The notes under the pieces were generated by a model. The model worked only from the letters and a program-made list of their open reading frames with translations. It was not told the origin of the DNA and did no database searches. A stretch of 64,000 nt of DNA from assembly GCF_009258225.1 (NCBI RefSeq), contig NZ_CP043617.1:1674001-1738000 (forward strand). The letters run 5' to 3'. Position numbers and translations under genes: made by a program. Of the stretch, positions 44,670 to 60,061 are shown piece by piece. Source of the DNA: Sulfurimonas lithotrophica. Lineage in GTDB: Bacteria; Campylobacterota; Campylobacteria; Campylobacterales; Sulfurimonadaceae. Position 1 is the first letter of the stretch. Every line of letters starts with the position of its first letter.

Positions 44670-44694
44670 ATTAGTTCTTAGAAATGACAACTAA
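44670..44694. repeat. Relic transposon right end plus target site outside the left end
   Basis: The 20 bases 44670-44689 are identical to the true right terminus at 58865-58884, and both are followed by ACTAA, giving a 25-bp exact direct repeat around the element. The stretch further left (about 44646-44669) also loosely resembles the inner right end. This is best read as the remains of an earlier related element at the same site. Confidence 0.75.
44690..44694. repeat. Left copy of target site duplication ACTAA
   Basis: ACTAA directly precedes the TGTCA terminus and matches 58885-58889. Five-base duplications are characteristic of Tn7/Tn5053-type transposition. Confidence 0.85.
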
Positions 44695-44720
44695 TGTCAT
44701 TTCTAAGAATAAATGTTACT
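44695..44720 (+). repeat. Left terminal inverted repeat
   Basis: These 26 bp begin TGTCATTTCTAAGAA and end ATGTTACT. They match the reverse complement of 58859-58884 at 24 of 26 positions. The inner ATGTTACT word recurs twice at the right end and probably belongs to the transposase-binding site. Confidence 0.9.
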
Positions 44721-44733
44721 GGAAAATTAGATA

Positions 44734-45561
44734 TTATTTACTTGCTTCATTGTTTGCTTTATTCTCTAGATTTTTCAAAGCATTTGGGATTAGAGTTTCA
44801 CTAAAACCTGCTAGAAAACCAAATGTCAATAATCCATAAAGTGGATTATCTAAAGAATTAATAAACCCAAATAATAAATTTGCCTTAATAAGTAAAAATA
44901 TAAAAACTCCACCTAAAATAGAAAATACGTTTCTTTCTATCCCATAGACAAAATATGGCCATTTTCCTAGTCCTTTATCTACATTTATCTTCGTTATGCT
45001 TCTTGAAACTGAGATTAAGCCACCTAAAGTAGCCATAGAGCATACTAAAAATAAATTATAAAAATTTGGTCTTTCCTGTATAATAAATTCTGGCTGGCAA
45101 ACATATAAGAATATACTTACACTACTAAAAAATACTGCAATTAAAAATGCACCAAAAATATAAATTAGTTTTCCAATTACAAGCTCTTTATATACATCTT
45201 CAATATTTGCATGTATATCTTCTAGTATTTTTTTTGCCTTATCAGGCTCTCCAAAAATAGCTACAGATAAAGCATGTGCCACTCTTGCTGAATAAGATTT
45301 ATTTGTAGCTTTAAATGATACAGCTTTAAGTTTATCAAACTCACCCTTTACAGATTGAAAATTATTTGTAGGTACCAAATCACCTTCTTTTTTTTCTTCA
45401 ATAATTACTGCTATGCCTTCAATCATTCCACTGTCTTGCACTGAATATATTACAAACTCTTCTGATCTTGCATATACATCATATACAATACGTCCAGAAG
45501 CATCTTTATTTCCAATTAATATATTGTTAAGTTTTTCTAACCTAAGTTCTTCTCTATTCAT
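44734..45561 (-). CDS. Cargo membrane protein, partner of the HEPN/RES protein
   Basis: This 275-aa protein has a soluble N-terminal part (about 1-135), then four predicted membrane helices (about 139-160, 175-193, 210-232 and 240-262). No family is recognised. It follows the HEPN/RES gene by 22 bp in the same direction and ends 13 bp inside the left inverted repeat, so the two cargo genes are likely co-expressed. A role as membrane effector, immunity protein or anchor is possible, but nothing in the sequence decides. Confidence 0.6.
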   Translation of the reverse strand: MNREELRLEKLNNILIGNKDASGRIVYDVYARSEEFVIYSVQDSGMIEGIAVIIEEKKEGDLVPTNNFQSVKGEFDKLKAVSFKATNKSYSARVAHALSVAIFGEPDKAKKILEDIHANIEDVYKELVIGKLIYIFGAFLIAVFFSSVSIFLYVCQPEFIIQERPNFYNLFLVCSMATLGGLISVSRSITKINVDKGLGKWPYFVYGIERNVFSILGGVFIFLLIKANLLFGFINSLDNPLYGLLTFGFLAGFSETLIPNALKNLENKANNEASK

Positions 45562-45583
45562 AATTCATAAAACCTTTTTTTAA

Positions 45584-46684
45584 TTAATATGCTAAAACTT
45601 CATAATCATAGTATGTATATTTTTCATCAAATAAAACATAGTTATCCCCATCACACAAACTACTATCAAAAATAAAACCATCATATCCTAATGACCAAAT
45701 ATATTCAGATACTATTTGAGTAGGTATATAATCTAAGTGCTTATCACTATCTTTAATTGGCTTACTGATATTAAATACAAAACCTTGTATATAGTTATAA
45801 CTGCAAATCAATTCTGGTGTATGTTTTTCTGAGAATGGATTTTGTCGTATTTGTTCTAAATTTTCATTCCTCAAGTCAACTAAATTCAAAGTACTTGTTT
45901 GAAATTCTCCTATTGCACATTCTTCACCCTCTTGCAGTCTTATTTCTAGCATAGCAGTTTCTTTTTCCTCTGATAAATAGACATAAGGAATTCCATTTGG
46001 ACTAAACCTATTTAATCCAGCAAGATGAAAAGGTGCTTTTCCAAGTTCTTTAGCTGCATTTTTTTCTATTAATTGCAAAACTATCTCAGAAGTTATTTTT
46101 CTAGCTCTATATAATGTTTTGTTTGTTTCAATAGACAAAGTTTCAAATGTCTTATTGAGCTTAGAAAGTTCTGATATTCTACTATACCCTGAATGGTCAA
46201 AAAATCTGGCTTTATGCTTTACATTTTCACAAAATTTTTCCCATTCAAGACCTATATTGTCACTACCTTCCCATTTACAACCCATATCAAGCCAACTTTC
46301 TTCATCCGGTGACTGATCAAATTCAGATTCTCCATCTGTATCATAATCTTTTAATAATTCATAAAACCTCTCATCGCAGTCTATTTCAAATAACATATAA
46401 CAAATATCTTTTAAGGTCATTAAACCTGGTAAATATAATCCAATATCATCACCTTCTTCTTTAGCAATCATGCCAGCACTTCCAACTAAACCATGTTCCC
46501 ATTCATGTTCATAAAAGCTTCTTATTATCTTTTGAACATCATTTTTTAATTTGATATCATTTAATCTATATAATGTATAATTGCCACATTCACTACACTT
46601 CACAGGTGTTTTGAGTTTTTTACCTGTACTTATAATATGATTTGAAACACTATTACTTTCAAAACATTGTTCACAAATATCCAT
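45584..46684 (-). CDS. HEPN/RES N-terminal plus RES domain protein (predicted NAD-degrading toxin)
   Basis: This 366-aa protein begins with a zinc-ribbon-like part (ICEQC ... VKCSECGNYTLY) and a helical region like the HEPN/RES N-terminal domain. A C-terminal RES domain follows (LYRARKI, FSPNGIPYVYLSEEKETAMLEI, TSTLNLVDLRN). RES toxins of RES-Xre systems break down NAD+. No Xre-type antitoxin is adjacent; the neighbour is a membrane protein. As transposon cargo this fits an abortive-infection or toxin module. The RES call is good by pattern; activity is inferred. Confidence 0.75.
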   Translation of the reverse strand: MDICEQCFESNSVSNHIISTGKKLKTPVKCSECGNYTLYRLNDIKLKNDVQKIIRSFYEHEWEHGLVGSAGMIAKEEGDDIGLYLPGLMTLKDICYMLFEIDCDERFYELLKDYDTDGESEFDQSPDEESWLDMGCKWEGSDNIGLEWEKFCENVKHKARFFDHSGYSRISELSKLNKTFETLSIETNKTLYRARKITSEIVLQLIEKNAAKELGKAPFHLAGLNRFSPNGIPYVYLSEEKETAMLEIRLQEGEECAIGEFQTSTLNLVDLRNENLEQIRQNPFSEKHTPELICSYNYIQGFVFNISKPIKDSDKHLDYIPTQIVSEYIWSLGYDGFIFDSSLCDGDNYVLFDEKYTYYDYEVLAY

Positions 46685-46719
46685 TATTTGCCTTAAAATT
46701 ATCTTTTTATAATCAACAC

Positions 46720-46725
46720 TATAAT
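46720..46725 (+). promoter_or_regulatory. Probable -10 box for the 179-aa cargo gene
   Basis: TATAAT lies 33 bp before the ATG at 46759, in the 74-bp divergent region shared with the HEPN/RES gene. Confidence 0.35.
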
Positions 46726-46758
46726 ATAGTTTTCATGAAATTTAGTTAAGAGATATAT

Positions 46759-47298
46759 ATGATTAAAGATTTTAAATTTATTATTTCAATTATGGATGGT
46801 TTTGTTAAGCAAACTTCAATACAAAACAAATTAAACGTAATTGACGAATGTTACATAACAGGCTGGGAAATTTGGTTTCAAATAGAATTGGCATCTTATT
46901 TAGACAATCACTACAATGTATCTGAATGGTATAGAGAAGAACAATATTACATGGATAAACGTAAAAGCAAATATAAATCAAAAATGGCTGTTGATTTCTT
47001 AGTTCGCCAAAAAAACACTAAAAAAGACTCTTATATTGCAGTGGAATTAAAACAACACTCCAGTACAGAAACGTGCATTGCAAAAATGATAGATGATATT
47101 ATAAAAGTAGATAGTGCAAAGCAGTCTTGTACTCAGTTCAGAAGTTTTTGGAATATTGGTATACATAAGAGAGAAAATAGCAAACAAGTTGTTAAAGAAA
47201 AAATACAAAAAAAAGTAAAACAAAAAAATATATTGATGCATGAATATATTGAAGTTAGATGGATTCCAAACACAAATTTTGCGTATACAATTTTCTAA
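46759..47298 (+). CDS. Small cargo protein with PD-(D/E)xK-like pattern
   Basis: This 179-aa protein has an AVDFLVRQ strand followed by YIAVELKQH. This D-x(n)-ExK arrangement is seen in PD-(D/E)xK nuclease folds. The N-terminal part is helical with an aromatic WEIWFQIELASYL segment. It lies 111 bp upstream of tnsA in the same direction. It could be a nuclease-like defence protein or a transposition accessory; no named family is recognised. Confidence 0.5.
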   Translation: MIKDFKFIISIMDGFVKQTSIQNKLNVIDECYITGWEIWFQIELASYLDNHYNVSEWYREEQYYMDKRKSKYKSKMAVDFLVRQKNTKKDSYIAVELKQHSSTETCIAKMIDDIIKVDSAKQSCTQFRSFWNIGIHKRENSKQVVKEKIQKKVKQKNILMHEYIEVRWIPNTNFAYTIF

Positions 47299-47396
47299 AA
47301 ATAAATGTGTCTATATATATTTTAAAACATTAATATCTTTATTTTTATACTAATTAATGTTATTTAATTTACATTTAAAATAATTTTCATTTATGG

Positions 47397-47402
47397 TATA
47401 AT
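47397..47402 (+). promoter_or_regulatory. -10 box placed for a leaderless tnsA transcript
   Basis: TATAAT ends 7 bp before the tnsA ATG at 47410, and the bases between are AT-only with no ribosome site. Confidence 0.45.
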
Positions 47403-47409
47403 TTTTATT

Positions 47410-48057
47410 ATGCCAGTCAGAAAACTAAAGAAAAGTTATATCTCATGTGTCGGTTATTTTAAAAGCTATAAAAACGATAGACAACAGGCTTTTGATTCTA
47501 TTCTTGAGAGAGAATGGTTCCTGTATTTTGAATTTGATAAGAATGTTGCTTCTTATGCAGAACAACCATATCATATGTACTATCAACTAAATGGTGTAAA
47601 AACTAGATACACCCCTGATATATTGGTAACTTATAGAGACGGCTCTCAAAAATTATTCGAAGTCAAATATCAAGATGAAATAGATTCTGATGAAGACCTA
47701 CAACATAAACTATTTATTCTAAAAAATGAAGTACCTAAACAAAAGCACCACCCTTTTGATGTTTTGACAGATGTAATATTAGATACCATCTATATGAAAA
47801 ACTGCGCATTTTTATATAAATATGCTTTTTTACAAGAAAATCAAGAGCTATCAGATAAAGTTGAAACAGCTATAAATAACTATGACACTTCAATCTCAGT
47901 TAATTCCCTGCTAGAAGATATAACAACAAATCAACAAGAGCAACTGATGATAATGCCATATGTTTGGAAGAAAGTATTTGACAATCCAACTCTCATAGAT
48001 ATGAATGAAAAAATAACTAAGCTATCTAAAATAAACTTAGGAGCTATAAATGAGTAA
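47410..48057 (+). CDS. tnsA: Tn7-like transposase endonuclease subunit TnsA
   Basis: This 215-aa protein has the TnsA nuclease pattern: SILEREWFLYFEFD (catalytic Glu region), then YTPDILVTYRDG and FEVKYQDE (the D and ExK elements). TnsA cuts the 5' ends of the element so that, with TnsB, it moves by cut-and-paste. It is shorter than Tn7 TnsA (273 aa). It overlaps the transposase gene by 8 bp and is the first gene of the tns operon. The ATG follows a TATAAT box by 7 bp. Confidence 0.9.
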   Translation: MPVRKLKKSYISCVGYFKSYKNDRQQAFDSILEREWFLYFEFDKNVASYAEQPYHMYYQLNGVKTRYTPDILVTYRDGSQKLFEVKYQDEIDSDEDLQHKLFILKNEVPKQKHHPFDVLTDVILDTIYMKNCAFLYKYAFLQENQELSDKVETAINNYDTSISVNSLLEDITTNQQEQLMIMPYVWKKVFDNPTLIDMNEKITKLSKINLGAINE

Positions 48058-49924
48058 ACTAAGTCTATCTATTGGCTCAAAAGTTTTCTACCAAAACAAA
48101 GAGTATGAAATAGTTAAAGCTATTGATTTTAAAACACTCTCCATACGTCCCCTCGATAACAAGTTTGAAATTATAGATGTAGCAATAAAAGACTTGTCTT
48201 CTAAGCCTGTAGAAGATAAGGTTCAACTAGACACTTTTACAGATGAAGAATGGAATGAGGCTAAAGAAAAGTATGAAGCTATTAAAGAGCTTGTGTTTAG
48301 AAAAAAAACTAGAAGTGAAGTTGAAAAAGTAGCTGAGCAACAAAAAGTTACGGCAAAGACAATATACTTGTGGATCAAGGACTATGAAACATCTGAAAAG
48401 GTAAGCTCTCTGATCTCAAATAAACACAAACGTGGTAAAAAAGGTAATCGTTTAGATCCACTTGTAAATAAGATCATTGAAGATGTAATTGAAGAGCTAT
48501 ATCTAACTAAACAAAGGATAGGCTTTTCAAAGATATATGACACGATTAAATCAGAGTGTAAAAAGTCCAATCTTACTCCACCAAACCATCAAACTGTTAG
48601 AAACAGAATAAAAGCAATTGATCCGAAGTTTGCTCTGAAAAAAAGGTTTAGTTCTAAAAAAGCAAATGAGGAGTATGGAAACTTTGAGGGTGAATACCCA
48701 GAGGGTGACTTTCCACTAGAGGTTTATCAGGTAGATCATACACCACTTGATATTATAGTTGTTGACCCTATCTTTAGAAAACCTATAGGCAGACCTTACT
48801 TAACACTTGCTATAGATATATATTCAAGGATGGTTGCCGGCTTTTATATCTCACTTCAAGCACCAGGGTACTTTAGTGTAAGTCAGTGTTTATACAATGC
48901 CTTTTTACCTAAAGATGACTTTCTAAAAAAGCAAGGCATAAAAGGTGAATGGGAGATTTATGGAATTCCTTCAAAATATGCAGTGGACAATGGTAAGGAC
49001 CTGATTGGGCTTGACATGCAGCGAGTTTGTGATGAACTTGGAATGTCAATGACAAGACGTCCAGTTGGACGCCCTCAATACGGTGCACATGTCGAGCGTG
49101 TATTAGGAACTATCAATAAAAAGATACATGACTTGCCAGGTTCTACTAAATCTAATATTGTCGATAAAGGTGAGTATGACTCTGTAAAAAATGCAACTTT
49201 TACCTTGGATGAAATAACTAAGTGGGTTACAGAATTCATTGTAAATGTATATCACAATAGAATTCATCATGGCATTGGTATGACACCAAAGCAAAAATAT
49301 AAAATAGGTATATTTGGAGATGATGAAAACCCAGGAACGGGAATACCACCTATCATTGAAAATCCTGAATCTATAAGAATTGCCTTGCTGCCAACTTATT
49401 ATAGAACTACTCAAAAGAACGGTATTACTTTAGATGGGATTACTTACTATTCAGATGTATTAAGAACCTGGATTAATAAGACTGATGAGAAAGGTAATAA
49501 ACTAAAGTTTAAAGTTAAAAGAGACCCACTTAACATACAAAAGTTATATTTCTTTGATCCTGAAATAAAAGAGTATTTTGAGCTCAACTACAGAAAACTA
49601 CATGCACCTAAAATGACACTCTGGGATATGCTTGTAGCTAAAAGATACCTCAAAGAAAAAAATATCAAAGATTATAATGAAGATGATATCTTTGATGCAT
49701 ATGACAGGCTTACAGAGATTGAAAAAGAAGCTAAAGAGAAAACTAAAAAACATAAGCTTAGAAAAAGTAAGTCTCATAAAATGGTAGACATTGAAATGAA
49801 AAAAGAAGCTGCCAAAGAAAATGAACCTACAGAAACTATAAAAGAGACAGTAGTGAAAAAGGAAGATAATAAATCTAGCGACCTATTTGCTAACATTAAA
49901 CTCTTTAATGTGAAAGAAAAATAA
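48050..49924 (+). CDS. tnsB: DDE transposase, TniA/TnsB-like
   Basis: This 624-aa protein has N-terminal helix-turn-helix regions (QQKVTAKTIYLWIKDYE). The DDE catalytic core has Asp in YQVDHTPLDIIVV, Asp in KYAVDNGKDLIG and Glu in QYGAHVERVLGTINKK. A beta-barrel and a Lys-rich tail that may contact the ATPase follow. It binds the terminal repeats and joins the 3' ends to target DNA. Its size is between TniA (559 aa) and TnsB of Tn7 (702 aa). It overlaps tnsA by 8 bp and the ATPase gene by 1 bp. Confidence 0.95.
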   Translation: MSKLSLSIGSKVFYQNKEYEIVKAIDFKTLSIRPLDNKFEIIDVAIKDLSSKPVEDKVQLDTFTDEEWNEAKEKYEAIKELVFRKKTRSEVEKVAEQQKVTAKTIYLWIKDYETSEKVSSLISNKHKRGKKGNRLDPLVNKIIEDVIEELYLTKQRIGFSKIYDTIKSECKKSNLTPPNHQTVRNRIKAIDPKFALKKRFSSKKANEEYGNFEGEYPEGDFPLEVYQVDHTPLDIIVVDPIFRKPIGRPYLTLAIDIYSRMVAGFYISLQAPGYFSVSQCLYNAFLPKDDFLKKQGIKGEWEIYGIPSKYAVDNGKDLIGLDMQRVCDELGMSMTRRPVGRPQYGAHVERVLGTINKKIHDLPGSTKSNIVDKGEYDSVKNATFTLDEITKWVTEFIVNVYHNRIHHGIGMTPKQKYKIGIFGDDENPGTGIPPIIENPESIRIALLPTYYRTTQKNGITLDGITYYSDVLRTWINKTDEKGNKLKFKVKRDPLNIQKLYFFDPEIKEYFELNYRKLHAPKMTLWDMLVAKRYLKEKNIKDYNEDDIFDAYDRLTEIEKEAKEKTKKHKLRKSKSHKMVDIEMKKEAAKENEPTETIKETVVKKEDNKSSDLFANIKLFNVKEK

Positions 49925-50865
49925 TGAGCATCGAACTATCTGCAAAGACTCAAAAAGTGCTTACAAAATCTGATGAAGAGCGTATAGAGTATATAGAACA
50001 AGAGTACTGGATAGATTATCCTATAGCCGAACGTATACTTGAAAAGTTAGAAAAGCTATATAAATATGGGCCTGGTAAAACAAGAACAATAAGTATGTTG
50101 CTAGTTGGTGGTTCAAACAATGGTAAGACTACTCTTCTTCAAGAGTTTATAGACAAGCACCCTCCTTATGACTACAACCTAGAAGGTGAAAAACCAAACT
50201 GGGTAACTGATGAATATTTTGAGAGGTATACAGGTATAGGCATACCAGTATTGTCAATAATAGCACCTAGAAGTCCAAGTGAAACTAGACTTTACAGCAT
50301 AATATTACAAAAACTAAATGTTCCTTTTAAATCAAAAGACACAGTTGACATAAAAGGCGGTTTGGTAAATTACTATCTAAAAGCTTTAAATGTACAAGTA
50401 TTGGTGATAGATGAGATACATAATATTTTAAAAGGTCCTACAGTTAAACAACTGCAAATTATGAGCACTATTAGAGATTTAAGCACTGAGCTAAAAATAC
50501 CTATAGTGTTAGCAGGCGTAAAGGATGCCTTACGTGCAGTAGGTACAGAAGAGCAAATAAGTAGTCGCTATAGACCTGAGTATTTAACTAAATGGAAAAT
50601 GAATGAAGACTATATCAATTTATTGGCTACCATAGTAAGCAGATTACCTTTAAAAAAAGAGTCTACAATTTTAAACGAAGATGATGCAAAAAAAATTTTA
50701 GAAATGAGTAAGGGATATATAGGTGAAATTGTCAACATTGTAAAGTCTGCAGCTATATATGCTATAGAAACTGGAAGTGAAAGAGTCACTATAAAGGAGA
50801 TAAAAGAGTGTGACTTTAATACACTAGAAAATGTTGATAAATCAACAGAGCTAAAAGACGTATGA
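49924..50865 (+). CDS. tnsC: Transposition AAA+ ATPase, TniB/TnsC-like
   Basis: This 313-aa protein has Walker A LVGGSNNGKTTLLQEF and Walker B VLVIDEIHNILKGP, with a sensor region IPIVLAGVKDALRAV. The SNNGKT form and short length match TniB of Tn5053 rather than TnsC of Tn7 (555 aa). It passes target choice from TniQ to the transposase. It overlaps tniQ by 4 bp. Confidence 0.94.
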   Translation: MSIELSAKTQKVLTKSDEERIEYIEQEYWIDYPIAERILEKLEKLYKYGPGKTRTISMLLVGGSNNGKTTLLQEFIDKHPPYDYNLEGEKPNWVTDEYFERYTGIGIPVLSIIAPRSPSETRLYSIILQKLNVPFKSKDTVDIKGGLVNYYLKALNVQVLVIDEIHNILKGPTVKQLQIMSTIRDLSTELKIPIVLAGVKDALRAVGTEEQISSRYRPEYLTKWKMNEDYINLLATIVSRLPLKKESTILNEDDAKKILEMSKGYIGEIVNIVKSAAIYAIETGSERVTIKEIKECDFNTLENVDKSTELKDV

Positions 50866-51986
50866 TAAAGAAACTGAACAACCCGGTTTTAAAACAAAAA
50901 AACTTTTTAATTATTCCTATACCATTTGAAGATGAGACATTAACTTCTTGGTTAGTACGTACTGCATATGCACATAAAACACACCCTCATACCTTTGTAA
51001 ATCAGTATTTAGACTTTAGACACTATTCATTTTTTACTACAGAACCTGATATCACTCTAGATGAACATATGATCAAAACTATAGAACAAAAGACAAATAA
51101 TAAAATTGATATAAAGAAGCTGATGTTGAAAACATACTCTGGATATCTACAAGAAAACATATTTGACAATCCTAATATGTTCCTATCTAAAATGAAATTT
51201 TGTCCTGTATGTTTGAGAGAAAATAAAGTCCCTTACTTTAGAAAGACTTGGCGTATAGCTTTTTATAACATCTGCCATAAGCATAAATGTCATATGTATG
51301 AAGAATGCCTTGAATGTAAATCTAAACTAGACATATCTAGTATGTATACAAATAAACTTACTTATGAGTTTTGTCATAAATGTGGTTTTGATCTTAAAAA
51401 AGCTAGAAGACTACCTTTACATCGAAAATATAAATCAACCATAGTTTATCAAAACAAGATACTTAATGTAGTCAAAAATGGGTATATACAACTTGATGAT
51501 AAACCTATCTATTCGTTTTTATTTTTCAAAGTCTTTGCTAAGCTTTCAAAACTTATACTATTAGATTCAAAACATAAGTTCATAGATAAACATCCACTAT
51601 ACAAAATAGTAAAACACTCCACACAAAGCAATACAAACCATCCTATTAACAAAAGAGTAAACTCTAGAGGACAATCAGCTCTATATGGGCTTATAATGTA
51701 TATATTTGACAACTATCCTTGTAACCTAAAAGAATATATCATCGAAAACAAGCTGACCCATTACGATATGACTGATGAAATGAAGTATGTTCCATTTTGG
51801 TACGACAACATTGTAAATAAAATAACACCTAGATATATTCCACATAGTATGACAGTAACAAAAGAAGAAGTTAAAGCTGCAAAAAAACATTTAAAATCAA
51901 TAGGGAAAGAGATTAACAAAGCAAACTTAACAAAACTACTAGGATGTAATTTTTATAGTATTTATAATGGATTAAAAAGCTATTAA
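50862..51986 (+). CDS. tniQ: Target-site selector TniQ (TnsD-like)
   Basis: This 374-aa protein starts IPIPFEDETLTSWLVRTAY, the TniQ hallmark. Zinc-finger residues follow: FCPVCL, HKHKCHMYEECLECKSKL and FCHKCGFDL. The C-terminal part has a helix-turn-helix-like KEVNKANLTKLL-type region and would bind target DNA. It is shorter than TnsD of Tn7 (508 aa) but longer at the C-terminus than minimal TniQ forms. It is the last gene of the operon and converges with the nuclease gene after 17 bp. The likely target is the 3' end of argJ (inferred from the insertion site). Confidence 0.92.
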   Translation: MIKKLNNPVLKQKNFLIIPIPFEDETLTSWLVRTAYAHKTHPHTFVNQYLDFRHYSFFTTEPDITLDEHMIKTIEQKTNNKIDIKKLMLKTYSGYLQENIFDNPNMFLSKMKFCPVCLRENKVPYFRKTWRIAFYNICHKHKCHMYEECLECKSKLDISSMYTNKLTYEFCHKCGFDLKKARRLPLHRKYKSTIVYQNKILNVVKNGYIQLDDKPIYSFLFFKVFAKLSKLILLDSKHKFIDKHPLYKIVKHSTQSNTNHPINKRVNSRGQSALYGLIMYIFDNYPCNLKEYIIENKLTHYDMTDEMKYVPFWYDNIVNKITPRYIPHSMTVTKEEVKAAKKHLKSIGKEINKANLTKLLGCNFYSIYNGLKSY

Positions 51987-52003
51987 CATATACCTAATTG
52001 TTA

Positions 52004-53056
52004 TTATGTTTTCTTTTTATTAGAGGACTGCTTTGACTTTACAGAAGCTGATTCTGAATTTAGATACAATTTAATAGCCTCTTTGTCTAAACTTACATTT
52101 AAATCATCTATTTCTGTGAAATCACAATATACTTTTTCATCTGTTTTACTTCCATCATATACCACTAGTACACCTTTTTTAGACTCAGTATTATTATTTA
52201 AATATATATTTAATTGCTTGAAAGCATTGCAAAGAGTATCCAGTTTGTAAGTTGTATTATTTCCTTTGTTATTTATAGATTCACCAGTCCATTTAACTTC
52301 AAATAAATACAGTTCATTACTATCATAATCAACAGCACATATATCTAAACTATCATTAGTTCTGTTATTTGATACTTCACTAAATACTTTTGCATCTATT
52401 ACATTTAACATTAAATAAGAAACTAAACTCTTATGGAAAAACTTTTCTGGTTTATTTAAAAGAATTCTATCATTTTTATTATGCCAATAATTGACTTTTT
52501 TTTCATCTAATACTTCAGAGGAAAAATGGTTATTAATTAAACGCTTATAATCTTTTATATTCAAAGCATATTTATCTTTTTTTCTACCCAATTTAAATAT
52601 ATCATTAATATTATTAAAGATTGTCATCCTTTTCGAATTATGAAATATTTCAATTTGATAATTATCAATAATAATAAATAATTTATTAGAAAATTCTTCT
52701 TTTTCAGACACCTCATATATTAAATCATCATCCAATATATTTTCTACTTTTTCTTTATCACTTAAAGTTATATTTCCATGAAAATCAATAATAAATTTAT
52801 TGTGCATTTTTTTAATGTATAAATCAAAAAAATCATCAAATATATTATACGTAAAATTTTTTACTTCTGACTCATTAACTAAAATTAGAATAGCTCTCTT
52901 TTTTTCAATATCTTTATAACTTTCACTAGTAAAAAGTTCTTTAAGGTTAACTAGAAATTCTATTATTTGTACAGGTGAATAAGTTGTATTAAAATTTTTT
53001 GATATTTTATTTGAAGGACTTTCCAATATCTTTTTTAACCTATGACTATCAAGCAT
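52004..53056 (-). CDS. PD-(D/E)xK nuclease effector of an ABC-3C-like system
   Basis: This 350-aa protein has an unrecognised N-terminal region. Its C-terminal part contains a nuclease-like core: KFFHKSLVSYLML (possible first Glu/helix position), then SLDICAVDYDSNELYLFEVKW, with Asp followed by E-V-K. A Lys/Ser-rich tail ends it. It overlaps the middle-component gene by 8 bp as the last gene of the ATPase-middle-nuclease trio. The DNA-cutting role is inferred from the motif and position. Confidence 0.65.
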   Translation of the reverse strand: MLDSHRLKKILESPSNKISKNFNTTYSPVQIIEFLVNLKELFTSESYKDIEKKRAILILVNESEVKNFTYNIFDDFFDLYIKKMHNKFIIDFHGNITLSDKEKVENILDDDLIYEVSEKEEFSNKLFIIIDNYQIEIFHNSKRMTIFNNINDIFKLGRKKDKYALNIKDYKRLINNHFSSEVLDEKKVNYWHNKNDRILLNKPEKFFHKSLVSYLMLNVIDAKVFSEVSNNRTNDSLDICAVDYDSNELYLFEVKWTGESINNKGNNTTYKLDTLCNAFKQLNIYLNNNTESKKGVLVVYDGSKTDEKVYCDFTEIDDLNVSLDKEAIKLYLNSESASVKSKQSSNKKKT

Positions 53057-53723
53057 ATTTATCGTCCTTTGTCTCTAAATACTTTGAATAATAAAACTCA
53101 AACATAGTCAATACAATCATTTCAAATAAGTACTCTTGTGTGAAATCTTTATCGGCATACTCTCTAATACATATATCTATAAGCTCTTTTGTTTGAGGAA
53201 ATTTTTCAATATCAATTAATTCAATCTTATTTTCAGTATTTCTAGCAGACAAAAAAGTTGGGTCTTGATAAACTAGTTTTACAATACCATCTAGATTATC
53301 GAAATACTTTAGTTTAACTGTATACAATATTGAAACCTTACATATTATATTGAACCAGGTATATTTTTCTTTCTGATATTTATATTGAACTAAATCACTT
53401 ACTAATTTTTTGCCTAAATCTGTTATTTTATAATTTATATAACTAATATTGTCTTTTATTTCATGTTTTTCAAAATCTATAATATCTATTAATCCAAACA
53501 TACTTAATTGATCTAATATATTCTGAAGTTCACTTGAAAAAGGTCCTCTATGATATGTTATAAATTCACATATTGCTAAACTTATTTTTTTTATTGGTAA
53601 TAATATATTTGCCAAATAAACTATTTTTTGAATACTTATCTTCGAAGCTTTAAAATCTTTTTCTTGTTCATCTAAAGCATATAGTACAAATAATACTTCA
53701 TTAGCTTTTTCATAGTTAATCAT
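53049..53723 (-). CDS. ABC-3C-type middle component (winged-helix-like)
   Basis: This 224-aa protein has ISIQKIVYLANILLP and YHRGPFSSELQNILDQL followed by FGLIDI. This pattern is shared by the small winged-helix-like middle components of ABC-3C systems and is also seen in Panacea-like antitoxins. It overlaps the ATPase gene by 8 bp and the nuclease gene by 8 bp. It probably bridges the ATPase to the effector; the exact MC subfamily is not assigned. Confidence 0.6.
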   Translation of the reverse strand: MINYEKANEVLFVLYALDEQEKDFKASKISIQKIVYLANILLPIKKISLAICEFITYHRGPFSSELQNILDQLSMFGLIDIIDFEKHEIKDNISYINYKITDLGKKLVSDLVQYKYQKEKYTWFNIICKVSILYTVKLKYFDNLDGIVKLVYQDPTFLSARNTENKIELIDIEKFPQTKELIDICIREYADKDFTQEYLFEMIVLTMFEFYYSKYLETKDDKYA

Positions 53724-55716
53724 TATTTGACTTTATTATGGAGTTAATTTTATTTTCTAACTCTATTTTCATAGGTTCTGTATTATCCATTAATTTTATA
53801 AAACTATATGTATTTTCTTCCGTAGCATATTTTTTTAAGAAATAAGGGTCATGTAAATTTGTTACAACTGTCAATGAAGATTGTATTTTGTTTGATAATT
53901 CATATATTGTTTTAGCTAAAGAGTCTATATTTAAATAGTCAAATGAACCTTCACTAGTCTCTAAAATAAAAAAAGATTCTATGTTATACTTTTTTTCTAA
54001 ATATTCTAGAAGTGATAATCTAAAAATATATTCAGTAATCAATCTTTCAGATGTACTTAGTGACTTTGCATCATTCTTTACAATTTTTTCAAGTACTGGT
54101 AATATTTTTGATAGTTCTACGAATTTATTATGTGCTAGTGATTGCCCAAGTACATCTGTTTTAGTAATACCGTCAATAACAAATACAACATCTTTATTTT
54201 CAAAATAAACTTTTGTGTTATTATTTAATATTTCCAAGAACTCATCTAGTTCACTTTTATAATTGTCACCAATATCTTTATAATACTGTTCCAAATTTTT
54301 CTCTAATATTTTTAATTCTTTATCTAGTTTTTTTATATTTGATTCTCTTTCATTAATTTCATTTTTTAGAGTTTTCATTCTAGAAACTTCAGTCATATAT
54401 TCTAGATTATTATATATATCGCTATTATTTTGCTCATATTCAAGTTTTATAAGTTTTTCACTTATTAATTCCTCTTTTATATTTTCTATAGTTTCAGAAG
54501 CACTATTAATACTTTCTTTTAAAACTTCTAGTTCTCTTTTAATTTTATCTTTAATATTTTTTTGATTAATTAAATTATCATAACTATAATCTACTTTGCT
54601 TTTTAAACTATTTAACTCATCCAATTTATCTTTAGAAAACTCTTTTCCATTTTTTAAAAGTTCTATTTCTTTGTCACACATTGGACAATGTGATGCTTTC
54701 TTAATACCATTCAATCTAATTACAGTAGATGTCCCAATACGATTTGTACAAAAAGAACATATTTTATAGTTATCTAGCTTATGATAAAAATGTAAATATT
54801 TGTTATATGTACCTTTATAGAATTTTGATTCTAATTTAAGTATTTCAGATTGTAAATTTTCATATTCTTCTTGAATTGAAAAAAATGTTTTTTGTTCTCT
54901 ATTATGTTTTGAAGAAACTTTCTCATATCCCTCTTTTAGTGTCTTAATATTATCCTCTTCTTTTTTCAACTTGATTTCTAAAAATTTAAGTTTTTTTGGA
55001 TCATATATATTTACGTTTTCTTTATTTGCTATCTTACTTATATTGTCATTAATTTTATCAAGTGTCTTTTTAATACTAGCATTGTGATGCTGTTCTTGCC
55101 TTTTTTCTGAATCTTTCTTTTTTATATCTAGTGTAATATTATTAAATTTTTGTTCATCACAATCGAAAAACATTAAAAACAACTTATTTTGTATGCTTTC
55201 ATTCCATAATAAAAAATCATCTTGTTCTTCTAGTACTAAAAACTCTTTCATTAAAAATACAAAGTTATCAAAGGATATACAAGATAGTTTTTCAACTTCA
55301 TTTTTATAAAAACTATTTAAATCATTTTCTTCTACATTATCATTATTTAATTTTAAATTAATAATTTTATTAGTTCTTATTTCTCTCTTAATTTCGATTA
55401 ATGAGTTAAAAAGTTTAAAATGAATCTCAACAGTGTTATTTTCTTCTTTTTTCATTCTAGATAAGAATTTTTTATTACTAATAGAAATTTCTTTATTATT
55501 CTTATTATTAGCAAATTCAAATTTATTATTATATTCACCTACTATAGCATATAACAGTAATTCTATAGTAGTAGTCTTTCCTATACTATTTTTACCTATT
55601 AATATATTTAAAGAATTTTCTAAAGATAAATCCAACTCTGTATTTGATGCAAACAAAGAATAAAAGTATCTAGACACCTTAAAAGATATTATTTTTGGAA
55701 GATTTATTGAACTCAA
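53716..55716 (-). CDS. Rad50/SMC-like ABC ATPase of an ABC-3C-like system
   Basis: This 666-aa ATPase has Walker A ILIGKNSIGKTTTIEL, a long coiled coil (about 200-530) with a zinc hook (CSFC ... HCPMC), a signature-like STSERLITEYIFR and a Walker-B-like FFILETSEGSFD. The ETSEGSFD form resembles the variant seen in conflict-system SMC ATPases. The start is TTG 55716 with AAGGTT upstream. It sits 54 bp after the methyltransferase gene and overlaps the middle component by 8 bp. It likely senses or tracks foreign DNA and triggers the nuclease. Confidence 0.8.
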   Translation of the reverse strand: MSSINLPKIISFKVSRYFYSLFASNTELDLSLENSLNILIGKNSIGKTTTIELLLYAIVGEYNNKFEFANNKNNKEISISNKKFLSRMKKEENNTVEIHFKLFNSLIEIKREIRTNKIINLKLNNDNVEENDLNSFYKNEVEKLSCISFDNFVFLMKEFLVLEEQDDFLLWNESIQNKLFLMFFDCDEQKFNNITLDIKKKDSEKRQEQHHNASIKKTLDKINDNISKIANKENVNIYDPKKLKFLEIKLKKEEDNIKTLKEGYEKVSSKHNREQKTFFSIQEEYENLQSEILKLESKFYKGTYNKYLHFYHKLDNYKICSFCTNRIGTSTVIRLNGIKKASHCPMCDKEIELLKNGKEFSKDKLDELNSLKSKVDYSYDNLINQKNIKDKIKRELEVLKESINSASETIENIKEELISEKLIKLEYEQNNSDIYNNLEYMTEVSRMKTLKNEINERESNIKKLDKELKILEKNLEQYYKDIGDNYKSELDEFLEILNNNTKVYFENKDVVFVIDGITKTDVLGQSLAHNKFVELSKILPVLEKIVKNDAKSLSTSERLITEYIFRLSLLEYLEKKYNIESFFILETSEGSFDYLNIDSLAKTIYELSNKIQSSLTVVTNLHDPYFLKKYATEENTYSFIKLMDNTEPMKIELENKINSIIKSNND

Positions 55717-55770
55717 TTAAATTTAACCTTTTTTATTATTTAGAATTAACTTTACAAAAATAAGGCTTAA

Positions 55771-57066
55771 TTATTTTTTAATTACTATTACACTTTCTCG
55801 AAGTTTGCCAACTTCTTTTTGTTGTGCACTTGGAGATATTTCTCTTGCAATTCTTATTTCTTCAATTTTAAATCCATGCAGTTTTGCAATCTCAGCTATT
55901 ATTTTATCAACTTCTATTAAAACACCATAATAAGAAGAATTTGCAACATTAAAATATATTTTTCCATAATTAGTTAACTTCTTGCTAAGGTTATAAAATA
56001 AAATATTCATATCTTCAAAATATCCTATAATCATATTCAATAAATTTCTATTCCAAAACTTATTTTTATGTTTATTTATTTCATCAACAACATTTGTCAA
56101 AATATCAATTTTTAAAGGTGTTAAATCATCATATGCAACTTGAACATGAGATCTCAAAGTACTTTTTCTTAATTTTTTTAACGAATCATAATCCTTAATT
56201 AAATCAAGCATCCATAGTTCTATCATATATATATCTGTATAATCTCTTGTATTTAGATATGGTGGAGATGTTATAACTAAATCAACACTATTATCTTTAA
56301 GAGTAGCTATAGACTTTCGTATATCACCATAATAACAATTTTGTTTATTACTTACCAACTCATTTTTAGTTAACTCATTTAACTTTTTTATATCATTTAA
56401 AATTGTTATATTTAACTTTTCATAAAATTCAAATAATAAGTCTTCTTTTTTTAAATCTAAATCTTTCCAATCTCTTTTATAACTTAAACATTTTCCATTT
56501 CTATATACATTACTATATTTTAGTAATAGTGAAGCACATGCGATTTCAAAAATATTTTTATATTTAGAATCTTTTACAAATGAAATAGCATATTTTATTT
56601 TCATAAATGTATCAAAAATATCTTTATTAAACATCCATTTTTTTAATTGATCACCTTCTACTATAGTTTTATATTTTGGTATACTCAATTTTTCATAAAC
56701 TAATGTCATTGATATAGCTGAGTCTTCAATAATATCTTTAACTAACTTACTACTTCTAATAAATGCCTTAGTTGTGTATCTTGTCTCCATTTTAGTTGTA
56801 GCAAGCTTATGCATAAATGGATTAACTTCAAAAGAAGTACAAGCTATCTTTTTTTTCTGTAACTCTAATGGTGTTGTACCACTTCCAGCAAAAGGTTCTA
56901 AACAATGTAGTGGAGTATAATTCAACTCATTTAAAATACTTTCTATAAATTCTTTTGAATAACCTTCTACAAATGAATACCACTGATGTATATATTCACT
57001 TTTATTTTTGTTAAACTGCATCAAGCCTTTATATTCACTCGAATAATCAACTATATTATAATCCAT
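55771..57066 (-). CDS. DNA amino-methyltransferase (SPPY type)
   Basis: I chose the ATG at 57066, with AAAGGT upstream; an in-frame TTG at 57081 is weaker. The 431-aa protein has motif I LEPFAGSGTTPLEL in its N-terminal part and motif IV LVITSPPYLNTRDYTD later. It should methylate an exocyclic amino group (N4-cytosine or N6-adenine). Because motif I comes before IV, it is not of the beta class. It precedes the ATPase trio in the same direction, so it could protect self DNA from the nuclease. No separate specificity subunit is seen. Confidence 0.85.
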   Translation of the reverse strand: MDYNIVDYSSEYKGLMQFNKNKSEYIHQWYSFVEGYSKEFIESILNELNYTPLHCLEPFAGSGTTPLELQKKKIACTSFEVNPFMHKLATTKMETRYTTKAFIRSSKLVKDIIEDSAISMTLVYEKLSIPKYKTIVEGDQLKKWMFNKDIFDTFMKIKYAISFVKDSKYKNIFEIACASLLLKYSNVYRNGKCLSYKRDWKDLDLKKEDLLFEFYEKLNITILNDIKKLNELTKNELVSNKQNCYYGDIRKSIATLKDNSVDLVITSPPYLNTRDYTDIYMIELWMLDLIKDYDSLKKLRKSTLRSHVQVAYDDLTPLKIDILTNVVDEINKHKNKFWNRNLLNMIIGYFEDMNILFYNLSKKLTNYGKIYFNVANSSYYGVLIEVDKIIAEIAKLHGFKIEEIRIAREISPSAQQKEVGKLRESVIVIKK

Positions 57067-57161
57067 TAATTTACCTTTCAAACATAAGCATTATAAATAT
57101 CATAAACTAAAATAATCCTGAAGATGCATTTATATTCTTAAATTAAGTATGTAGTAGATTA

Positions 57162-58823
57162 CTATATTAATTTTTTCAAAACACTCTCACACCATCTTTC
57201 AATACTATCATCATCTAAATCACCATTTTTATGGTCTTTTCTTTCAAAAGACAACTTATAATTATCGGAAACATATTTAGTAAGTTCTTTATAATTAAAA
57301 TCTTTTTCAATATAATGTTCAATTATGCTTTTCATATTATGAGCAGTATACGGCTCTATACTCTCATCTGTGTAAAAAATCCAAGTAGATGGACCCCAAC
57401 TATCATCTTGTTCTATTTCGACTATATACACTGCTTTCTGGTCATATGAAAGTTCACCAAATAGGAACCTTCTGTTTTTACTATCATCTCCGTCTTTTTT
57501 TGACTTCGACTTATTGCCTTTTTTCTTATTGTTTTTTATCAAACTAATATCATTTGGTCCTACCAATTCTGAACCTTCAACATATGCAAATGTTAGTAAA
57601 GCTTCATAAAATTGATAAAAATTTTCCAGGTTAAATATATTTTTCTCTTTATTAGCTTCTTTATCATCATTTGTTTGTTCTGTTTCACCAAGCTTTTTAT
57701 CACCATCAGCAGCTGGTTTTTCAAAACTGTTACCTATTTTTCCAGGTATATGTTTATTCAATGGTTCAGCTTCACCTTCTTTATATAATGTTTCGCCAAA
57801 TACTGCTACTTTATTGTTATAATATTCCTCTGTATGTGTATAAAGTTTATGCTTAGCATAGTCACTTGATGGTGTACCAGTATATACTTTATTGTCTCTT
57901 TTTGGTTTTTTTCTTTTGAATCTTTTTTTAGATTTTTTAGGTGGTATATACTCTTCTGGATCTAAATCTTGCGGATCTACATTTTCACTATATTGTTTAT
58001 AGTAAACTTTATCAAATCCAAAAGGCGCATTGTCAGAATGTATATTTAAAACAAGATACTTTGGTTTACCTCTTCTGTCATTGCCTATGTATATATATGA
58101 AGCATATATGTTAAATGCATTTCTACTTGGAAATTGAGCTTTTATTGGTTGATATTCATCATTTGACAAAGACTTCTGATTTCCAACATACTCCAGTCTG
58201 TTTCTTGCAAATGAACTACCGATAAACCTGCATAAAAATGGTAAATCTTTTTTCCCAGCTTTTCTTTTTATATGAAGTTTAACTACTGTCTGGTCATCTT
58301 CTGTTTTATTTCTAAAGCTCCCCTCATAATAAAGTTCTCCCAAAGTTGAACTCATAATTGCATGCTTCATAGATGATGAAATAAAATAAAATCTGTTCGC
58401 TATTGTATAGCACGGTATAACTAACGTACAATCATCTTGTTCCTCTACATGGGCATACTGTCTCATAAAAGACTCTTTTAAATCATTATCACTTAAAAAG
58501 TTTGATTCATTATATATAATATCTGAAAGTTCCATTAGCTGTATACTTGTATTTATATTTACAAAAAACTCACCTTTTAATAGTGTTTTATTTTGTCCAA
58601 CGTGTTTACCATTAGTATATACATGCCCAACTTTATATTTATAACGCATCATTTCTGGTGTCATAGGTGTAGAGTGAAATAAATTAGTTTCTATGTTTCT
58701 AAAAATAGCTTTGTAGTAGTTTGGATGTTCTTGAATATTTATGTCTGTAACTATGACAAATTCAAAAGGTTGGTTTTTATATTTAGAAAAAAAGTCGAGG
58801 ATTTTTGAATCGTTTTTTGACAA
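57162..58823 (-). CDS. tnsE: Probable TnsE-like target selector
   Basis: This 553-aa protein is close in length to Tn7 TnsE (538 aa). Several blocks fit TnsE by eye: VIPCYTIANRFYFISSSMKH followed by AIMSSTL, a middle GKPKYLVLNIHSD strand, a Lys/Arg-rich then acidic linker (about 300-400), and a C-terminal DDSIERWCESVLKKL. TnsE directs Tn7 to replicating DNA such as conjugal plasmids. It begins at TTG 58823 with a GGAGGA site whose edge overlaps a transposase-site-like word. It lies alone at the argJ-proximal edge, apart from tnsABC-tniQ. Confidence 0.68.
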   Translation of the reverse strand: MSKNDSKILDFFSKYKNQPFEFVIVTDINIQEHPNYYKAIFRNIETNLFHSTPMTPEMMRYKYKVGHVYTNGKHVGQNKTLLKGEFFVNINTSIQLMELSDIIYNESNFLSDNDLKESFMRQYAHVEEQDDCTLVIPCYTIANRFYFISSSMKHAIMSSTLGELYYEGSFRNKTEDDQTVVKLHIKRKAGKKDLPFLCRFIGSSFARNRLEYVGNQKSLSNDEYQPIKAQFPSRNAFNIYASYIYIGNDRRGKPKYLVLNIHSDNAPFGFDKVYYKQYSENVDPQDLDPEEYIPPKKSKKRFKRKKPKRDNKVYTGTPSSDYAKHKLYTHTEEYYNNKVAVFGETLYKEGEAEPLNKHIPGKIGNSFEKPAADGDKKLGETEQTNDDKEANKEKNIFNLENFYQFYEALLTFAYVEGSELVGPNDISLIKNNKKKGNKSKSKKDGDDSKNRRFLFGELSYDQKAVYIVEIEQDDSWGPSTWIFYTDESIEPYTAHNMKSIIEHYIEKDFNYKELTKYVSDNYKLSFERKDHKNGDLDDDSIERWCESVLKKLI

Positions 58824-58835
58824 TTTTCAAATCCT

Positions 58836-58845
58836 CCAGTAACAT
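58836..58845 (-). promoter_or_regulatory. Inner ATGTTACTGG word at the right end
   Basis: The reverse complement of 58836-58845 reads ATGTTACTGG, the same as 44713-44722 in the left end. It lies 13 bp inside the right inverted repeat and touches the tnsE ribosome site (58832-58837). It is a likely transposase-binding repeat. Confidence 0.5.
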
Positions 58846-58858
58846 TTGTTTATGTACG

Positions 58859-58884
58859 AGTAACATTAGTTCTTAGAAATGACA
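58859..58884 (-). repeat. Right terminal inverted repeat
   Basis: Read on the minus strand it starts TGTCATTTCTAAGAA and ends ATGTTACT, differing from the left repeat at two of 26 positions. It ends 1 bp before the argJ stop codon. Confidence 0.9.
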
Positions 58885-58889
58885 ACTAA
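58885..58889. repeat. Right copy of target site duplication ACTAA
   Basis: It matches 44690-44694. The argJ stop codon (58886-58888) and one base of the last sense codon lie within it. Confidence 0.85.
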
Positions 58890-60061
58890 GTTCTATAATC
58901 TGCATTTATCTTAACGTACTCATATCCAAGGTCGCAGCCGTATGCTTTAAAGCTCCCCTTAGCTATTCCGAGATCACAATTTATTGTAAACTTTTTATGC
59001 GTCATAACTATGGCAGCTTTTTTCTCCATCTCTGCATCAAAGTAAACTTCACCTTTGTCATACACACATACATTATCAAAAGAGATTTTCAAGCTCATCT
59101 CGTCAGATGCAACTCCGCTAGCTCCTATGGTAGATGCTATACGACCCCAGTTTGGATCTTCCCCGTAAAGTGCAGTTTTTACAAGTAGTGAGTCTGAGAG
59201 TGCTTTTGCAGCTATTTCAGCCTCTTTATCATCTTTTGCACCCGTTACGTTATAAGTTACGAGTTTTGTAGCACCCTCTCCGTCACGCACCATTTCACGA
59301 GCTAAAAAAAGCATGATTTTATAAAGAGCATCTGCAAAAGCTTCTTTATCATATGCACCGCTTTTTTTATTTGCAAGAACCATTACCGTGTCGTTTGTAG
59401 ATGTATCTCCATCAACGCTTGCAGCATTAAAAGTGGTCTTTGTAGCTTCATCTAAGATTTTTTGCATCTCGTGTGCCGGTACATCTGCATCTGTAGTTAT
59501 AAAACAAAGCATAGTAGCCATTGCAGGATTAATCATACCCGCACCTTTAGCCATAGCACCAATGCTAAAACTGCTTCCATCGTCAAGTTCGACTTTGTAT
59601 GCACACTCTTTTGAAAAACTGTCAGTTGTCATTATAGCACGTGCCGCATTTGAAGGATTTTTTTGAGTTATATCAAAAAGTTTAGTTCCCGCTATTATTT
59701 TTTCTTTTGGAAGTCTTACCCCTATTACACCGGTTGAACTCATAACAGGGTTTAGTTTATCAGAAAAATTTTGCATAATCTCATCTATATCTTTAACACC
59801 TGCAACACCTGTCATAGCGTTTGCATTTTTAGAGTTTATAAGTACGAAATTAGTTTGAAAGTCACCCTTTGCTTTAAAATGTTTTATAGGTGCTGCCGCC
59901 ATCTTATTTGTCGTAAATACAGATGCAACATCACAAGGTGCATCCGAGTATATAAACGCCATATCCAGTGCAGAGTTTGCTTTTAATCCTGCACTAACAC
60001 CGTCTGCAAAAAAACCTTCACTACTACATACACCGCTGTCTAAATAAGTTAATTTATACAA
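58886..60061 (-). CDS. argJ: Glutamate N-acetyltransferase / N-acetylglutamate synthase
   Basis: This 391-aa enzyme moves the acetyl group from N-acetylornithine to glutamate in arginine synthesis. It self-cleaves at the Thr in [17 protein letters not shown]. The C-terminus INADYRT is the conserved end of the family, so the gene is complete. Its TAG stop lies inside the target duplication of the Tn7-like element, so insertion left the protein unchanged. argC is also in this window. It overlaps the K+ channel gene by 8 bp. Confidence 0.96.

Follow-up and report, generated by a model that had tools for sequence, protein, structure and literature searches.

What does a 553-aa open reading frame encode when it lies alone at the far end of a transposon from tnsABC-tniQ, and what could it do there? 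The frame occupies positions 57162-58823 (minus strand, TTG start) of a 64,000-bp stretch of the Sulfurimonas lithotrophica chromosome, the whole of which we call the window. It is a real frame, with 31 stops on the plus strand opposite it, and an earlier note on this DNA had read it as a diverged TnsE.

A very diverged TnsE at the far end of the element

The Pfam TnsE_C model matches residues 439-546 of the window protein with an E-value of 2.5e-4 and 21.4 bits, below the curated cut-off of 26.7, and it also matches six of the eight relatives in alignment A1 (best E 2e-4). Searches of PDB sequences with the single window protein (phmmer) and with an eight-row profile gave no TnsE match, so that the link to TnsE needed a broader profile or a fold; NCBIfam and PHROG had no match to the window protein either. 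When 29 Campylobacterota TnsE rows (A4) were compared by hhalign with nine Tn7-type TnsE taken from plasmids (A3), the two profiles were collinear over 418 columns with a score of 71.6 and a probability of 94.9, against 10.7-22.5 for the controls (a reversed profile, 20 column-shuffled profiles and the elements' own TnsA, TnsB, TnsC and TniQ profiles). This similarity is far beyond chance. The profile of the argJ/dprA sub-branch by itself scored weakly against Tn7 TnsE (31.8), and the connection of this sub-branch to Tn7 TnsE runs through its relatives. The C-terminal W-x-E-x-V pattern to which the earlier note pointed is present in the window protein (W544-C-E-S-V, as compared with W-A-E-R-V in Tn7 TnsE), but across the 29 relatives only its W is invariant.

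The predicted fold agrees with the profile. An AlphaFold2 model built from the window and related-locus sequences was moderate overall (pLDDT 54.7, pTM 0.47), and its C-terminal domain (residues 394-553, encoded at 57165-57644) aligned with the solved TnsE C-terminal domain at VIA-align Z scores of 12.3 (9d5l), 11.5 (5d17) and 11.3 (5d16), the next, unrelated fold reaching 5.6. The top four Foldseek matches were TnsE chains (probability 1.00, E-values of at least 1.5e-3), and TnsE C-terminal structures were the only strong structural matches of the model. In the N-terminal half (residues 13-265, 58029-58787), two small OB-like beta barrels are predicted, with weak OB/SSB fold matches (Z 4-5.6) and no confident structural match; the lack of a PriB match carries no weight. 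The barrels are in line with, though no proof of, the two SSB/PriB-like domains described for the N-terminal half of TnsE (Faure et al., 2023; PMC10293859).

Judged by profile and predicted fold, the frame is a very diverged TnsE. The earlier note had named the absence of a profile match together with an unrelated fold as the outcome that would speak against this identity; the test was run, and both profile and fold match TnsE. That the similarity is a matter of chance and the protein an unrelated cargo or regulatory one would account for the Pfam score under the cut-off and for the empty NCBIfam and PHROG searches, but this reading is contradicted by the controlled profile and fold comparisons and by the presence of the gene in every complete element compared, and we give it almost no credence.

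The element and its relatives

The gene belongs to a complete Tn7-like element of 14,190 bp (44695-58884), which has identical tips (TGTCATTTCTAAGAA) at both ends as a terminal inverted repeat and is flanked by the 5-bp TSD ACTAA (44690-44694 on the left; 58885-58889 on the right, with the argJ stop codon inside). TGT...ACA ends and a 5-bp TSD are shared with Tn7, and TnsA, TnsB, TnsC and TniQ are all present and intact, so that tnsE is encoded within a TnsABC transposon. The core runs rightward as tnsA (47410-48057, 215 aa; PF08722, 2.2e-12), tnsB (48050-49924, 624 aa; PF09299, 6.8e-8), tnsC (49924-50865, 313 aa) and tniQ (50862-51986, 374 aa; PF06527, 2e-22), all on the plus strand. It is followed by four minus-strand cargo genes and, last, by tnsE, which reads inward; about 5.2 kb separate the end of tniQ at 51986 from that of tnsE at 57162, much as the earlier note had estimated. 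Its placement of the gene at the argJ-proximal edge was also right: the right end of the element, 61 bp away from the start of tnsE, touches the stop codon of argJ (58886-60061, minus strand), the attachment-site gene, which is co-directional with tnsE and whose name is taken from that note. Orthologs of argJ, 72-75% identical, adjoin relatives of the window element. Directly beyond the left TSD lies a remnant of an old right-end tip (ATTAGTTCTTAGAAATGACA, 44670-44689; direct repeat D15), and the left flank of a related element (L028, genome G008) likewise carries a right-end tip remnant outside its left TSD. These remnants suggest that elements have inserted more than once at this base, next to an older element now decayed, and that the old end confers no immunity.

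As the earlier note had stated, tnsC encodes a short TniB-type ATPase (PF05621, 2.7e-53), but the view of that note that its pairing with TnsE is an unusual combination is not supported. Tn6022-like elements are already known to combine a short TnsC and TniQ with remote TnsE homologs, which lie near the far end on the strand opposite tnsABC-tniQ (Faure et al., 2023; PMC10293859). The Acinetobacter pC13-2 element, our Tn6022-like reference, shares tnsABC, the short TniB-type TnsC, the short TniQ and the far-off, opposite-strand TnsE with the window element, whose TnsB, TnsC and TniQ are nearer to it than to Tn7 (TnsB, 36% as against 24%; TnsC, 31%), making it the nearer transposase of the two references; comM is also among the sites of the Campylobacterota lineage. 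Unlike Tn6022-like elements, those of this lineage are without TnsF and use argJ, mnmG or dprA as sites, and the TnsE branches differ, the Campylobacterota profile being nearer to Tn7 TnsE than to Tn6022-like TnsE (71.6 vs. 34.5). Against both profiles, one Tn6022-like protein taken alone (L173:3701-5506) scored no higher than noise, and a six-row profile still scored low. The window element, with cargo convergent on the core after tniQ, is a relative of Tn6022 and not a member, because it has no TnsF beside tniQ and its site is argJ rather than comM. Nor is it Tn7 proper. Its TnsE shares with that of Tn7 (the R721 copy; 5d16, 5d17, 9d5l) the collinear columns, the C-terminal fold and a similar length (553 vs. 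538 aa), but Tn7 has a 555-aa TnsC, a 508-aa TnsD, a glmS site and a tnsE that comes last in the tnsABCDE operon, whereas the window element has no such operon, no TnsD and no glmS site, and its tnsE is separate, convergent and at the other end, by the attachment gene. Campylobacterota harbor far-end TnsE of both branches, since a TnsE on the Aliarcobacter cryaerophilus plasmid pCNAC48 (L174 15959-17737) belongs with the Tn6022-like ones (hhalign 97.9%); the same plasmid stretch holds a predicted VEB beta-lactamase gene.

The arrangement forms a large Campylobacterota lineage in which tnsE stands directly behind a host gene at the home site. Of 135 genomes of the genus, 20 carry a TnsE of this family, and among 397 Campylobacterota genomes it turned up in 42, spread over 16 of 68 genera, with Sulfurimonas and Sulfuricurvum among the named records. 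Tn7 TnsE used as a query matched nothing in 200 Campylobacterota genomes, which illustrates why TnsE of this kind escape homology searches. In most elements readable as far as the core, the attachment gene is followed by the right end, tnsE, cargo and the convergent series tniQ-tnsC-tnsB-tnsA. Only tnsA, tnsB, tnsC, tniQ and tnsE are common to all 19 elements compared, the commonest cargo family being present in six of them. What is new, besides this position of tnsE, which resembles that of a cistron directly following the attachment gene, is the TnsE branch itself and the use of argJ, mnmG and dprA. TnsE has been described as almost universal in glmS- and comM-targeting elements, and nothing mechanistic is known of any TnsE except that of Tn7 (2024 review, PMC11406308); the lineage offers a far-diverged set with mapped ends, in five-gene elements free of extra selectors.

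Home sites, copies elsewhere and the choice of target

Four attachment genes were recognized, from fetched stretches of at most 20 kb, with many left ends outside them: argJ and mnmG (both at the 3' end), and dprA and comM (both internal, comM in Nitrosophilus labii and a relative, G160). At argJ the insertions lie at the stop codon (TSDs TTAGT, ATAAA, ATAAA and ATAAT), the TSD spans that codon, and in all full elements whose ends were mapped the right tip lies 59-61 bp away from the start of tnsE; the site is reused base-precisely. The competence gene dprA is the insertion site in L083, L084, L098, L105, L106, L107, L112 and L110, and comM is used in N. labii and G160 without TnsF, insertions at both genes disrupting natural-transformation genes. 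L110, labelled 'other' in the TnsE, TniQ and TnsB trees, was considered as a non-home copy and rejected, as its neighbors are ilvC and a polysaccharide deacetylase gene, which mark the dprA locus; cargo lies in between.

A few copies were found away from these sites. On the closed chromosome of G008 (2,201,561 bp), the copy at argJ is 17,627 bp long and has an identical twin (L027; TSD GTATG) inside flhF, a flagellar gene that it interrupts. The N. labii chromosome (G183) has an element in comM (TSD GCGGT), and the 102,672-bp plasmid pHRV44 of the same genome has two copies at unrelated plasmid sites, one truncated to 3.3 kb; a TSD was sought around the fuller copy and was not found. The N. 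labii element has the TnsE branch (hhalign 73.7), the gene order and the placement of tnsE at the attachment gene in common with the window element, and differs from it in its comM and plasmid locations and its cargo. Two consecutive tnsA-tnsB pairs, unlike the chromosomal copy there, make the plasmid copy (L159 14741-19458) look composite in its sequence. Finally, G021 has an mnmG-type element (TSD CATAG) on a contig of 28 kb that also bears genes for ParA and an integrase. The replication-type proteins of this contig have few or no plasmid relatives, so that it is no more than a likely plasmid. The plasmid cases came by way of a TnsB search; tblastn of plasmids with the window TnsE found nothing.

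In Tn7, TnsD reads the home site and TnsE directs insertion into plasmids or in association with replication (PMC11406308, PMC5371812). By analogy, the window tnsE is probably the target selector of a two-pathway Tn7-like transposon, in which, as we infer for the division of labor and for target recognition by TnsE, TniQ would take the place of TnsD and steer the element to its home site, and TnsE would steer it to plasmids or replicating DNA. The plasmid and non-home copies are consistent with such TnsE-directed insertion, and with only five genes shared they cannot be put down to a TnsF or to a second TniQ; an extra conserved selector gene was looked for in the 19 compared elements and was not found. 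These copies could also be off-target TniQ events. Also against the two-pathway reading, the flhF copy of G008, the one genome in which position relative to ori and ter was sampled among few non-home copies, lies at about 0.7 Mb, away from the apparent terminus (about 1.1 Mb). The IPQLELAR stretch of Tn7 TnsE, which we take to be its beta-clamp-binding region, is not conserved, being aligned to IPCYTIAN in the window protein with only I-P kept.

Could TnsE, rather than TniQ, have been re-purposed to select argJ, mnmG, dprA and comM as home sites? This would account for the position of tnsE at the end of the attachment gene, and it accords with the shortness of TniQ (374 aa, compared with 508 aa for Tn7 TnsD) and the want of a TnsF-like partner common to the elements. 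The TnsE tree tracks the attachment sites fairly well, but TniQ does so about equally well (in the TnsE, TniQ and TnsB trees alike, the argJ elements make up one side of a branch), and such co-variation does not decide which protein reads the site. Against it, TniQ/TnsD is the home-site selector in the relatives that have been studied (PMC10293859, PMC11406308), and the N. labii and G008 elements, with intact TnsE, are found away from home as well. We consider a re-purposed TnsE unlikely, and prefer the two-pathway reading. The lineage also provides a pair of chromosomal and plasmid copies found in nature, and a simple and testable idea of how the choice of target could be linked to location.

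tnsE behind the attachment gene, and the cargo

That idea follows from where tnsE stands, directly behind the attachment gene, a point which the earlier note, supported on the TnsE identity but not on the unusual combination, had overlooked. Of the argJ and mnmG elements, 23 were checked, and in all of them tnsE points the same way as the host gene, its start lying 32-69 bp beyond the stop of that gene. Where the site is dprA or comM, seven of nine elements (dprA L098, L084, L105, L106 and L112; comM G183 and G160) have a truncated host frame that crosses the right end and stops between -20 and +2 bases of the tnsE start, the exceptions being L107, which has no such frame, and L110, with its intervening cargo. 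The flhF and G021 non-home copies were checked and have no upstream frame running to tnsE; in a further copy (L043), tnsE starts 299 bp behind a co-directional gene. In the window, the right end of the element (58824-58884, minus strand) is also the 61-bp leader of tnsE and contains two TnsB-site-like repeats (AATGTTACT), an outer one at 58859-58867 and an inner one at 58838-58846, which directly abuts the Shine-Dalgarno sequence GGAGG (58833-58837); a TnsB-site-like repeat also lies in the left end (44712-44720, plus strand). A crude scan of the argJ-tnsE interval on the tnsE strand found no promoter-like or terminator-like site. Read from sequence, this layout suggests that expression of tnsE may depend on the attachment gene. 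It may even be, though we hold this only tentatively and rather doubt it, that tnsE is wired to home as the next cistron, made only by read-through from argJ or mnmG or by translational coupling to the truncated dprA or comM. In that case the plasmid-seeking pathway would be active at home and silent once the element has landed elsewhere, which, if true, would give a transposon a new means of sensing its own location.

Alternatively, tnsE might be a degenerate gene without function, retained only for the sake of the right end, whose TnsB sites would overlap its 5' end. Three mini-elements at argJ (L032, L033 and L037; 901, 1,014 and 1,284 bp), which have both ends and a TSD and were presumably mobilized in trans, retain only the 5' part of tnsE beside the right end, and broken copies occur (L043, L108, L116 and L117). 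However, the TnsB-like repeats were found upstream of the start codon, and full-length frames of about 548-569 aa, with conserved C-terminal residues, persist across many genera at identities down to about 20%; a degenerate gene seems to us quite improbable. A 5' fragment of tnsE also lies at argJ in L034, L035, L036 and L089, where the left end is unmapped.

The four cargo genes between tniQ and tnsE (52004-57081, minus strand) encode an uncharacterized protein with a weak Card1-nuclease match, a small protein resembling the DarG C-terminus, an LmuB/SMC-like ATPase and an MTase_II protein, and they probably form a defense system. At the tnsA end, the cargo (44734-47298) comprises genes for a membrane protein and a RES-domain protein, both on the minus strand, and a plus-strand gene directly before tnsA (46759-47298), whose 179-aa product has a weak match to the TnsA N-terminal domain (E 0.03) and could be a second nuclease.
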